Shown piece after piece: positions 26,645 through 29,984 of a stretch of DNA of 64,000 bases. Within the stretch, counting starts at the first letter, position 1; the number at the start of each line of letters is the position of its first letter. Under the pieces are notes generated by a model that searched no databases, was not told the DNA's origin, and saw only the letters and a program-made list of their open reading frames with translations. Source of the DNA: Stygiobacter sp. (GTDB lineage: Bacteria > Pseudomonadota > Alphaproteobacteria > Rhodospirillales > Magnetospirillaceae); contig VBWB01000004.1 of NCBI GenBank assembly GCA_006218045.1, forward strand, positions 1 through 64,000, in the 5' to 3' direction. Made by a program: the position numbers and the translations under genes.

Positions 26645-26968
26645 ATGTCCCATAAATACCATGTGTTCGTTTGCACCACCTCGCGCCCGGCGGGTCATCC
26701 GCGCGGCTGCTGCACTTCCAAGGGCGGCGGCGCGGCCATGTTCGACCAGATGATGGCCCGTTTCCAAAAGGGCATGCTGTGGGAAAAGGGCGTCAGCCTG
26801 GCCCAGGCCAGCTGTCTGGGCTTTTGCGGCAACGGCCCGTTGATGGTGGTCTATCCCGAAGGCGTCTGGTATCAGCCGGTGGAAGCCGCCGATTACGACG
26901 AAATCGTCGATTCCCATTTCAAGAAGGGCCAAGTGGTCGAGCGCCTGCGCGTCAATCCCGGCCATTGA
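26645..26968 (+). CDS. Thioredoxin-like [2Fe-2S] ferredoxin
   Basis: A 107-residue Shethna-type ferredoxin of the thioredoxin-like fold. Cysteine ligands occur in the family spacing: VCTTSRPAGHPRGCC (Cys10 and Cys22 or 23), then SCLGFCGNGPLMVVYPEGVWY with two cysteines four apart. The GNGPLMVVYP block is diagnostic. These proteins donate or store electrons in the cytoplasm, sometimes near nitrogenase or hydrogenase genes; none lies nearby. It has a strong AGGAG ribosome site and a dyad immediately upstream. Confidence 0.88.
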   Translation: MSHKYHVFVCTTSRPAGHPRGCCTSKGGGAAMFDQMMARFQKGMLWEKGVSLAQASCLGFCGNGPLMVVYPEGVWYQPVEAADYDEIVDSHFKKGQVVERLRVNPGH

Positions 26969-27002
26969 TCGGATTGGTTCGGGGGGCTAATACCGTGTCC
27001 CG

Positions 27003-27135
27003 CTGATCGGAACCGATCAGCCGTGCCCTCAGGCGCCGGGCGCATCCCTCCGGGATGCTGGGCTCACGCGGCATAAGCCGCGCGGCGCCTTGCGCCTAAC
27101 CAAGTCCCCGATGAGTCGAACTCATCGGGACTTGG
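27003..27135. repeat. Palindromic intergenic repeat with nested hairpins
   Basis: This gene-free stretch is almost all secondary structure: CTGATCGGAACCGATCAG (27003-27020, perfect), GCATCCC/GGGATGC near 27041-27057, and CCAAGTCCCCGATGAG (27100-27115) paired with CTCATCGGGACTTGG (27121-27135). The last hairpin abuts the stop of the CULT gene and may terminate it. The 17-mer GCGGCGCCTTGCGCCTA at 27082-27098 recurs at 37293-37309, and ATCGGGACTTGGTCTAA at 27124-27140 recurs at 28447-28463, so it belongs to a dispersed repeat family. Confidence 0.7.
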
Positions 27136-27136
27136 T

Positions 27137-27511
27137 CTAATCCGCCGGTCCCTCGGCCAACCGATCCTTGATCAGACCGAAGAAGGTGCGTGGTTGGCTG
27201 CCACCTTCATAGTGCCAGCCCAGATGGCTGCCGCATTGGCCGCATAGGGCGATGGTCCAATCATAGCCCTTGAACCAGCTGAATTCCCCCGAAGGCGCGC
27301 CGATCAGGCGCAAGCCCTGGGCTTGGGCGAAACACCAGACGCGAAAAATCATTCCCGCCGGATTGAACACCACGTGCTCATGCTCGCCGCCGATCGGCAG
27401 CAGCCAGTCGCGGCGGGTGATGATTTGTCCACAATGGCGGCAGCGGAAGATACTGGCGCCGGGGGCCAGCACCATCTGGGTGCTGTTTTGTCCCCCGGCA
27501 TCCAAGGGCAT
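27137..27511 (-). CDS. Cereblon-type CULT-domain protein (MsCI4-like)
   Basis: A 124-residue stand-alone CULT domain, the thalidomide-binding fold of eukaryotic cereblon. Zinc ligands are Cys24/Cys27 (FRCRHCGQ) and Cys90/Cys93 (ALCGQCGS). The three aromatic-cage tryptophans are at 79, 85 and 99, with Asn50 facing the pocket, the same numbering as in the crystallised Magnetospirillum gryphiswaldense protein MsCI4, which this protein strongly resembles from memory. Bacterial members bind glutarimide/uracil-like ligands, but their natural ligand is unsettled. The start lies 2 nt after the stop of the tandem parvulin gene, so the two are translationally linked. No signal peptide. Confidence 0.92.
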   Translation of the reverse strand: MPLDAGGQNSTQMVLAPGASIFRCRHCGQIITRRDWLLPIGGEHEHVVFNPAGMIFRVWCFAQAQGLRLIGAPSGEFSWFKGYDWTIALCGQCGSHLGWHYEGGSQPRTFFGLIKDRLAEGPAD

Positions 27512-27513
27512 GG

Positions 27514-28152
27514 TTACGCCGTGCGCTGGATCAGGTGATAGCCGAAGGGGGTTTCCACCACGTCGGAAATCTGGCCCACATCCAGGGCGAAGGCGGCGGT
27601 CTCGAATTCGCCGACCATCTGGCCACGCCCGAAATCGCCCAGATCGCCGCCTTCGCGGCCCGACGGGCAATCGGAATGGTCGATGGCCTGCTTGGCGAAA
27701 TCGGCGCCGGCGGCGATGTCGGCCTTGATCGCGTTGATCTGGGCCAGGGCGTCGTCCTTCGAGCGTTCCGCCGAGGAATGCATGGAGCCTTCGTACATCA
27801 ACAGGATGTGCGAGGCGCGGATCTGCGCTTCCGGCACCGTGCGCTGGATCAGGTGAAAGCCGAACGGGGTCTCGACCACGTCGGAAATCTGGCCTTCTTC
27901 CAGGGCGAAGGCGGCGGCATCGAAATCGGGCACCATCATGCCGGGGCCGAACGTGCCCAAATCGCCGCCGTCGCGGCCCGACGGACAATCGGAACTTTGG
28001 CCGGCCAGTTGGGCGAAATCGGCACCCTGGGCGATCTGGGCCTTGAGATCGGTGATCATGGCCAGCGCTTCGTCCTTGGAGCGGGTGGCGGTGGACCGCA
28101 TGGAGCCCTGGTACATGAGCAGGATATGTGAAGCGCGAATTTGCGAGGCCAT
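27514..28152 (-). CDS. Tandem-domain parvulin-type peptidyl-prolyl isomerase
   Basis: A 212-residue cytoplasmic protein consisting of two parvulin domains (about 4-106 and 108-212), each with RASHILLMY, DCPSGR.GGDLG.F, and an ISDVVETPFGxHLIQRT ending. Parvulins catalyse cis/trans isomerisation of X-Pro bonds; single-domain versions (PpiC type) are the rule, so the internal duplication is unusual. No signal peptide or membrane segment. It is the first gene of a two-gene unit with the CULT protein 2 nt downstream. Strong start: ATG 28152, directly followed by ASQIRASHIL. Confidence 0.9.
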   Translation of the reverse strand: MASQIRASHILLMYQGSMRSTATRSKDEALAMITDLKAQIAQGADFAQLAGQSSDCPSGRDGGDLGTFGPGMMVPDFDAAAFALEEGQISDVVETPFGFHLIQRTVPEAQIRASHILLMYEGSMHSSAERSKDDALAQINAIKADIAAGADFAKQAIDHSDCPSGREGGDLGDFGRGQMVGEFETAAFALDVGQISDVVETPFGYHLIQRTA

Positions 28153-28242
28153 GGAAATACTCCTAAATAGAAAATCGCGGGACCATAGCAGCAGGCGGGG
28201 TAGGGATGCTATAGCTTGGTGAAGCCATTAACGGAGAAGTTC

Positions 28243-28356
28243 ATGAGCATCGAAACCATCGCCATCGCCTCCGGTCTGGTGTTCGGCGCCGGGCTGATCA
28301 TCGCCAAGTTGCTGATCGGTCGGGCGCTGGCCAACAAGGCCTTGCGCGAGAAGTAA
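28243..28356 (+). CDS. 37-residue single-pass membrane peptide
   Basis: MSIETIAIASGLVFGAGLII begins this 37-residue ORF, one hydrophobic helix (about 5-27) ending in a basic tail (RALANKALREK). GGAG lies 7 nt before the ATG, codon use fits the genome, and it is divergent from the parvulin gene. Family unknown; the pattern resembles small membrane regulators. A repeat element begins 12 nt after the stop. Confidence 0.55.
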   Translation: MSIETIAIASGLVFGAGLIIAKLLIGRALANKALREK

Positions 28357-28367
28357 GAAAAATGTTG

Positions 28368-28472
28368 ATCGCGGATTTCGCAGCCCGAGATCCCGTCCGG
28401 GACATGGAACCGGAAACGCTCCATGGTTTGTCGCCCTACTGTGTTAATCGGGACTTGGTCTAAATCCGCGAT
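28368..28472. repeat. 105-bp palindromic element with 11-bp terminal inverted repeats
   Basis: ATCGCGGATTT (28368-28378) and AAATCCGCGAT (28462-28472) are exact inverted repeats. Inside are TCCCGTCCGGGA and a CATGGA/TCCATG pair, and the right arm carries ATCGGGACTTGGTCTAA shared with 27124-27140. A non-autonomous repeat (MITE or REP composite) is likely. Confidence 0.6.
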
Positions 28473-28480
28473 GAACCAAG

Positions 28481-28509
28481 AAAAAACCCGCCCAAGAGGC
28501 GGGTTTTTC
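28481..28509. terminator. Bidirectional Rho-independent terminator
   Basis: AAAAAACCCGCC, loop CAAGA, GGCGGGTTTTT: a 7-bp GC stem with A-run before and T-run after, so it can work on both strands. It separates the small plus-strand ORF/repeat from the minus-strand gltA unit. Confidence 0.9.
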
Positions 28510-28510
28510 A

Positions 28511-28621
28511 TCAGTTGGTTTCCATCCAGACGATGGCTGCGGCCATCATCGCCAACAGGGCGACGAAACCGGCTTTTTTCAGTCTTTGCCCCAGCGGGCC
28601 GCGATTATCGTTGGCGGCCAT
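28511..28621 (-). CDS. 36-residue putative membrane peptide downstream of gltA
   Basis: MAANDNRGPLGQRLKKAGFV opens a 36-residue ORF with a basic N terminus and one hydrophobic helix (about 17-32), ending 2 nt before the terminator. It sits 64 nt beyond gltA on the same strand and could be its last cistron. No good ribosome site is visible, and the ORF can be extended upstream in frame into gltA (to 28711), so the start is uncertain. Confidence 0.4.
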   Translation of the reverse strand: MAANDNRGPLGQRLKKAGFVALLAMMAAAIVWMETN

Positions 28622-28685
28622 GGGGAATCGTCGGGGCGGCGCCGTGTGGCGCCGCCCTTCTGATGCAAAGATCCGTACGCGCTGA

Positions 28686-29984
28686 TCAGCGCTTTTCGAT
28701 CGGCGGGACATCGCGGACGTCGGAACCGATGTACAACTGGCGCGGACGACCGATCTTCTGGTCGCTGTCGGTCAGCATTTCGTTCCACTGGGCGATCCAG
28801 CCGACGGTGCGGGCCAGGGCGAACAGGCAGGTGAACACCTGGGTCGGGATGCCCATGGCGCGGAAGATGATGCCCGAATAGAAGTCGACGTTGGGGAACA
28901 GCTTGCGCTGGACGAAGTATTCGTCTTCGAGGGCGATGCGTTCCAGTTCCATGGCCAGCTTCAGCAGCGGGTCGTCCTTGACGCCCAGCTCGGTCAGCAC
29001 TTCATGGCAGGTCTGCTGCATGATCTTGGCGCGCGGGTCGTAGTTCTTGTACACCCGGTGACCGAAGCCCATCAGACGGAACGGATCGTCCTTGTCCTTG
29101 GCCTTGGCGATGAATTCGGGGATGCGGTCGACCGAGCCGATTTCATGCAGCATTTCCAGCACGGCTTCGTTGGCGCCGCCATGGGCGGGGCCCCACAACG
29201 AGGCGATACCGGCGGCGATGCAGGCGAACGGGTTGGCGCCCGACGAACCGGCCAGACGGACGGTGGAGGTCGAGGCGTTCTGTTCGTGATCGGCGTGCAG
29301 GATCAGGATGCGGTTCATGGCGCGAGCCAGGATCGGGCTGATCTTGTATTCCTCGCACGGGGTGGCGAACATCAGGTGCAGGAAGTTCTCGGCATAGGAC
29401 AGCTTGTTCTGCGGATACATGAACGGCTGACCCTGCGAGTACTTGTACGCCCAGCCGACGATGGTCGGCATCTTGGCGACCAGACGATAGCTGGCGACCA
29501 TGCGCTGGTGCGGGTCGTTGATGTCGGTGGAATCGTGATAGAACGCCGCCATGGCGCCGACGACGCCGCACATCACCGCCATCGGGTGCGAATCGCGACG
29601 GAAGCCGCGGAAGAAGAACGAGATCTGCTCGTTCAGCATGGAGTGATGGGTGATGTCGCTCTCGAACTTGGTCTTCTGTTCGGCGTTGGGCAGTTCGCCC
29701 TTCAGGATCAGATAGGCCACTTCCAGGAAGTCGCACTTCTCGGCCAACTGGTCGATGGGATAGCCGCGGTGCAACAGCACGCCGGCGTCACCGTCGATAT
29801 AGGTGATGGCCGACTTACAGGAACCGGTCGAGGTGTAGCCGGGGTCATAGGTGAAGATGTCCATGTCGCCGTAAAGCTTGCGGATATCCATGACCTTGGG
29901 GCCGACGGTGCCCGACAGCAGGGGCATCTCGATCTGCTTACCGGTGCTGTTGTTGATAAGCGTTACGCTTTCCTTAGTGCTCAT
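28686..29984 (-). CDS. gltA: Citrate synthase (type II, hexameric family)
   Basis: A 432-residue enzyme that condenses oxaloacetate with acetyl-CoA to start the TCA cycle. Catalytic His and Asp blocks are present: [28 protein letters not shown], and [15 protein letters not shown]. The N-terminal extension of about 50 residues ([20 protein letters not shown]) marks the NADH-sensitive type found in Gram-negative bacteria. ATG 29984 is chosen with GGGGAAAG 6 nt upstream, rather than the in-frame start at 30008. It follows gltX by 79 nt on the same strand. Confidence 0.97.

Follow-up and report, generated by a model that had tools for sequence, protein, structure and literature searches.

MsCI4 (MGR_0879, cereblon isoform 4 of Magnetospirillum gryphiswaldense) is a standard model for cereblon drug binding. 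According to the accessible portions of PMC4449219 and PMC4287342, it binds thalidomide, uridine and uracil in vitro, uridine being held in the manner of thalidomide and with comparable affinity, and the accessible text of PMC10641816 describes a cyclic-imide dipeptide bound to the protein (PDB 8BC7). The CULT domain was defined in PMC4287342 (2015), whose available parts list proteins from Haliangium, Leptospira and a gamma-proteobacterium and place prokaryotic CULT-only proteins mainly in delta-proteobacteria, with a few in alpha- and gamma-proteobacteria and one in a spirochete. The words parvulin, operon and neighbor do not occur in that paper, and the MsCI4 literature covered, including PMC8900816 and available in part, states no natural role for the protein. 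In the open-licence PMC literature MGR_0879 is named only in PMC4287342, cereblon and parvulin meet, in the text portions available, only in the context of PIN1 proteolysis-targeting chimeras, and searches for cereblon with magnetotactic and for CULT domain with rhodanese returned nothing. Here we analysed a stretch of 64,000 nucleotides (nt) from Stygiobacter sp., Magnetospirillaceae (assembly GCA_006218045.1, contig VBWB01000004.1, positions 1 to 64,000), referred to as the window, in which the gene of a CULT protein lies directly behind that of a two-domain parvulin. The CULT protein itself is not new, being well known as an MsCI4 ortholog; the new contribution is a survey of its gene neighbourhoods. 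We consider it fairly probable that the two genes are an inherited operon of the Magnetospirillum lineage, with the CULT protein as an autonomous ligand reader and no dedicated parvulin-CULT machine.

The CULT protein and the tandem parvulin

The CULT gene occupies positions 27137..27511 on the minus strand (ATG at 27511, stop at 27137) and encodes a single-domain protein of 124 amino acids. It matched MsCI4 (7ps9 and 4v2y among its many PDB entries; 8bc7 is listed under the same sequence) over residues 1-124 with an E value of 6e-83, so that it has no part beyond the CULT domain and covers MsCI4 in full length; 116 of the 124 residues were identical, and eight differences were counted in the alignment. 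PDB chains named Protein cereblon matched residues 22-118 (E 3e-16 to 1e-13), and Pfam gave no family above its cut-off, Yippee-Mis18 coming closest with 23 bits against 26.6. The zinc cysteines and tryptophan cage that the earlier note had recognised are indeed kept: C24, C27, C90 and C93 form two intact CxxC zinc motifs, and W79, W85, W99 and Y101 are all present. Among the 61 CULT loci of the survey described below, 60 retained the three cage tryptophans and the four cysteines, the exception being a truncated remnant (locus L073). Given this identity to MsCI4, the window protein is expected to bind glutarimide, cyclic imide or uridine. The activity we prefer for it, reading of cyclic-imide C-termini, is suggested by studies of MsCI4 and of cereblon in eukaryotes and not by the window.

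The parvulin gene (27514..28152, minus strand, ATG at 28152, TAA at 27516-27514) encodes 212 amino acids of the PpiC/Pin1 type, in which Rotamase PF13616 was found in two stretches with 182.2 bits against a cut-off of 22.5. Domain 1 (about residues 1-107) and domain 2 (about 108-212) are 71% identical, and both keep a His (ASHILLMY), a Cys (SDCPSG) and a second His (F/YHLIQRT) aligned with Pin1-type chains, which we take to be active-site residues. The protein was taken as cytosolic, a signal peptide not being evident by eye. When the window's genome (G000) was compared with the family genomes G002, G012 and G005, the ratio of non-synonymous to synonymous substitution rates (dN/dS) was 0.12, 0.47 and 0.29 for CULT and 0.16, 0.12 and 0.27 for the parvulin, respectively. 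Over all six pairs among these four genomes it ranged from 0.12 to 0.54 for CULT and from 0.08 to 0.27 for the parvulin, with dN larger for CULT in every pair. Both genes thus look constrained, CULT less so than the parvulin.

The open reading frame (ORF) coordinates confirmed that CULT starts 2 nt past the parvulin stop, as the earlier note had stated. No strong ribosome-binding site was seen by eye at this spacer (27512..27513), and a ribosome-binding-site-like AGGAG lies 7 nt ahead of the parvulin ATG (28160..28164, minus strand). In 26900-28700 a simple scan detected no sigma-70-like promoter; it picked up two terminator-like sites, both on the plus strand, a count not above that of shuffled sequences. 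The 2-nt gap and the promoter-free scan make co-expression of the two genes probable, in agreement with the earlier suggestion that they are made together, and the short gap without a strong ribosome-binding site suggests translational coupling from parvulin to CULT. A listed ORF of 283 amino acids (27137-27988) is the CULT frame extended upstream across the parvulin gene. At and behind the CULT stop, in the interval to the convergent gene downstream, lies one copy of a dispersed hairpin repeat (27075..27140), which gave 19 matches at 16 places in its own genome, itself included; the region 27060-27150 folds at z -6.5. A 17-base portion of the repeat overlapping the CULT stop has an exact second copy at 28447-28463.

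Distribution and gene neighbourhoods

CULT was found in 8 of the 13 genomes of the window's genus by single-sequence search and in 20 of the 55 genomes of its family by profile search. At 19 of the 20 family CULT loci the parvulin gene was found on the CULT strand, upstream and within 7 kb. In six of these 19 loci the two genes were 2-7 nt apart and in two they were 109 nt apart; two others had about 360 nt and a small opposite-strand ORF between them, and in the remaining nine the distance was 0.6-6.6 kb and included other genes. A close parvulin ortholog was present in 37 of the 55 genomes, 19 with CULT and 18 without it, and one genome (G021) carried CULT with only more distant parvulins. 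As a control neighbour we used the 2Fe-2S ferredoxin-like gene that faces CULT in the window (26645..26968, plus strand; 22.8 bits, below the Pfam cut-off of 24.8), which cannot share the CULT transcript because it is convergent and on the other strand. No gene intervened between CULT and the parvulin at 8 of the 20 family loci and between CULT and this opposite-strand gene at 12 (these counts and the gaps above are approximate, as the simple gene caller missed CULT in several loci and called spurious opposite-strand ORFs, e.g. over a PPK2 gene in L066); the ferredoxin-like gene was not found at three of the loci, including one that is cut off where the contig ends. Because a gene that cannot be co-transcribed adjoins CULT more often than the parvulin does, we do not read parvulin adjacency as functional, and this is our main argument. 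Counted within 4.5 kb of CULT at the 20 loci, DUF4170 was present in 15 and trmFO, the ferredoxin-like gene and the parvulin in 14 each.

These genes belong to a conserved block, uvrA / rluE-like / SpoU methylase / parvulin / ferredoxin-like / DUF4170 / trmFO, in which SpoU methylase and DUF4170 were assigned by Pfam, and uvrA, rluE and trmFO, like gltX and gltA below, by reading of the sequences. Its flanks, whole or partial, were recovered at 17 of the 18 parvulin loci lacking CULT, the remaining one (G032) showing the parvulin only. At family CULT loci with a parvulin, CULT sits inserted in the block, except in the clade with fused, i.e. two-domain, parvulins, where gltX and gltA lie upstream instead as far as the contigs show, and in G049, G022 and G003, where part of the block is rearranged or cut off. 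In the family's ancestor the CULT gene would then have sat behind the parvulin inside this block, and inherited gene order would have placed the pair on one transcript. In the window the resulting operon would comprise the fused tandem parvulin prolyl isomerase followed by the MsCI4-type CULT protein, a single zinc beta-tent domain that would act as an autonomous reader and whose tryptophan cage would take a glutarimide-like ring, presumably of cyclic imides in the cell, with no functional coupling between the two proteins.

Other genes lie in the interval in some relatives. Six family genomes have a PPK2-kind gene between parvulin and CULT (Pfam run on L063 only), at 6988-7977 of L063 (G039), where it ends 3 nt before CULT, and likewise in L066-L070; PPK2 is a polyphosphate-driven nucleotide kinase. 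In G003, CULT is reduced to the truncated remnant mentioned above (L073, 7985-8158), and a nucleoside deoxyribosyltransferase gene lies between remnant and parvulin. By eye, the remnant adjoins an apparent integrase-type sequence.

In wider surveys, CULT was detected in 21 of 398 Pseudomonadota genomes, namely that of the window and 20 more that all belong to one class of 48 genomes, and in 21 of 247 genomes of the phylum of a Desulfobacterales locus (L003); 11 and 17 candidates, respectively, were scored per genome in these two surveys, so that some CULT genes may have been missed. When the 48-genome class was scored in full, the same 20 matches came out. We infer that this class is Magnetococcia, since it is small and all 48 genomes carry the magnetochrome domain. 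As to mobile CULT genes, a pattern scan of viral contigs, in which 20 stretches matched the pattern, confirmed no CULT relative, and tblastn of the window protein against plasmids and phages gave no match; this candidate was dropped.

For the neighbourhoods outside the family we took 41 loci: all 20 from the Magnetococcia-like class, together with L003, L004 and a further 19 from the 247-genome survey, leaving out two partial CULT matches (G607 and the second match in G636). The stretch covered on each side was at most about 8 kb in the class and 5 kb at the other loci, less on short contigs, and the next gene was called upstream in all 41 and downstream in 39. A phmmer search with the window parvulin detected no parvulin in the flanking stretches of any of the 41 loci. 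The link between CULT and a parvulin neighbour, for which the earlier note had asked for such a survey, therefore holds inside the family, with the parvulin upstream at 19 of 20 loci, and breaks down outside it.

Other neighbours recurred instead. A small rhodanese gene followed the CULT match by 18-117 nt in 5 of the 20 Magnetococcia-like loci, drawn from three families of the class (L075 3005-3430, L078 8341-8766, L082 3649-4074, L089 8383-8733, L091 8365-8748; Pfam run on L078). The protein is single-domain and conserved, and its catalytic motif CRSGHRS was intact in all five. Five further loci of the class (L076, L077, L079, L083, L086) had a BatD-type gene upstream of CULT (Pfam on L076), and in four of them BatA/B-like genes, named by reading, were seen further upstream. 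A HemD/methylase gene preceded CULT in 3 of the 21 Desulfobacterota loci (Pfam on one member), and an aspartyl-tRNA-synthetase-like gene abuts CULT in L004. At 15 of 20 family, 9 of 20 class and 8 of 21 Desulfobacterota loci, a gene on the CULT strand was called no more than about 150 nt upstream. Clustering of the genes called within 4.5 kb of the 61 loci yielded no universal neighbour, and the largest mixed cluster (15 loci) was rejected as a common neighbour, being an uninformative union of response-regulator-like and other multi-domain proteins. The gene context of CULT thus varies from lineage to lineage, often with another gene ahead of it.

History of the pair and competing explanations

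Several observations weigh against an operon held together by inheritance alone, and they concern the history of the pair. In a tree of 113 alignment columns the family CULT proteins (19 rows, L073 left out) formed one side of a branch with support 95/98, and the gap of 2-7 nt recurred on either side of the deepest split within the family part of the tree (G000, G002, G012 and G005; G009; G048). For this reason tight pairing was probably ancestral in the family and later opened in several lineages, which is the strongest point in favour of a functional pair. The recurrence of this gap in 6 of the 20 family loci puts adjacency beyond chance in this sense, though the six loci are related by descent. 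In addition, the fused parvulin was found in six family genomes, all six with CULT, and in the six PPK2 genomes parvulin, PPK2 and CULT point in the same direction and may be held on one transcript. The presence of CULT with every fused parvulin and the probably ancestral short gap fit a functional pair, and neither is independent evidence for it.

We rejected the duplicated parvulin as independent support because its six genomes form one clade on the CULT tree (support 99/97) and mostly have a common derived flank, gltX-gltA, seen in five of the six (in G008 the contig ends). The second domains of the fused proteins clustered together (0.999), the first domains not resolving as one group, and a single duplication is the likeliest origin of the fusion.

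The earlier note had proposed that the two proteins are a surveillance pair for protein damage or conformation. Here the parvulin would isomerise or help to unfold damaged proteins and the CULT protein would recognise the cyclic imides that arise at C-termini when the backbone is cleaved at Asn or Gln, as a lineage-specific module. Close pairing, probably ancestral and preserved at 2-7 nt in six genomes, is the part of the proposal that stands, and it is consistent with the His/Cys/His residues kept in both parvulin domains and with the dipeptide on MsCI4 (PDB 8BC7; accessible text of PMC10641816). The parvulin is, however, no general partner of CULT, as it was absent from the stretches covered at all 41 outside loci, occurs without CULT in 18 family genomes, and is absent from G021, which has CULT and only more distant parvulins. 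Together with the more frequent direct adjacency of the ferredoxin-like gene (12 against 8 of 20), this leaves a functional pair unlikely.

A second explanation takes the CULT protein as a uracil or uridine binder or sensor tied to nucleotide metabolism instead of a reader of protein damage. It would account for the binding of uracil, and of uridine in the thalidomide manner, by MsCI4 (PMC4449219 and PMC4287342, accessible portions) and would give meaning to the PPK2 gene that separates parvulin and CULT in six family genomes and ends 3 nt short of CULT in G039, and to the nucleoside deoxyribosyltransferase gene beside the remnant in G003. The PPK2 genomes are nevertheless one subgroup, and no recurrent outside cluster, among those seen in at least 3 loci, was evidently nucleotide metabolism; we regard this explanation as rather improbable.

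Little credence can be given to a bolder version of the damage hypothesis, in which parvulin and cyclic-imide reader would have been joined in an operon of the Magnetospirillum lineage and act together on proteins that have aged or been cleaved, with a doubling of the parvulin's catalytic domain at a later stage, so that the module would predate or parallel the eukaryotic cereblon degron pathway.

Finally, that CULT belongs to magnetosome biology is highly improbable: Pseudomonadota CULT was confined to the window's family and the class with magnetochrome (PF18509) throughout, and L004 (G451) comes from a Candidatus Magnetocorallium metagenome-assembled genome, outside the magnetochrome survey, but 9 of the 20 family CULT genomes, including the window's, gave no magnetochrome match and, of the 22 family genomes with magnetochrome, 11 have no CULT (Fisher p 0.098), the 247 genomes of L003's phylum have CULT in 21 and magnetochrome in 7 at E 0.001 (5 over cut-off) with no overlap, and the available parts of PMC4287342 list CULT proteins from Haliangium, Leptospira and a gamma-proteobacterium. 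A magnetosome link as a rule thus failed both in the family and in L003's phylum. Since magnetochrome had no match in the window's genome (62 contigs), this genome is probably that of a non-magnetotactic relative of M. gryphiswaldense.

The inherited operon with an autonomous CULT reader therefore remains our preferred explanation. The survey shows where the search for a role should not begin: bacterial CULT proteins do not have the parvulin as a general partner, and magnetosomes do not provide a context common to them. A further handle is that in the window's lineage the protein is probably made from the transcript of the parvulin, and that elsewhere its gene stands beside rhodanese, BatD-type or PPK2 genes.

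Comparison with known systems

Each half of the window parvulin corresponds to one parvulin domain of the Pin1 or PpiC type with the aligned His, Cys and His (Pin1, 1j6y and PpiC were among the matches). Unlike Pin1, the protein has two tandem domains and no WW domain, and the basic patch that serves for phosphate in Pin1-type parvulins is mostly absent from the alignment. The CULT protein has the same domain and cage as the thalidomide-binding domain of eukaryotic cereblon, which according to the accessible text of PMC4287342 also has a LON domain and a DDB1-binding part, whereas the window protein has neither. Closest of all is MsCI4, which has the same length, cage and zinc residues as the window protein and differs from it by eight substitutions, all outside the cage residues.
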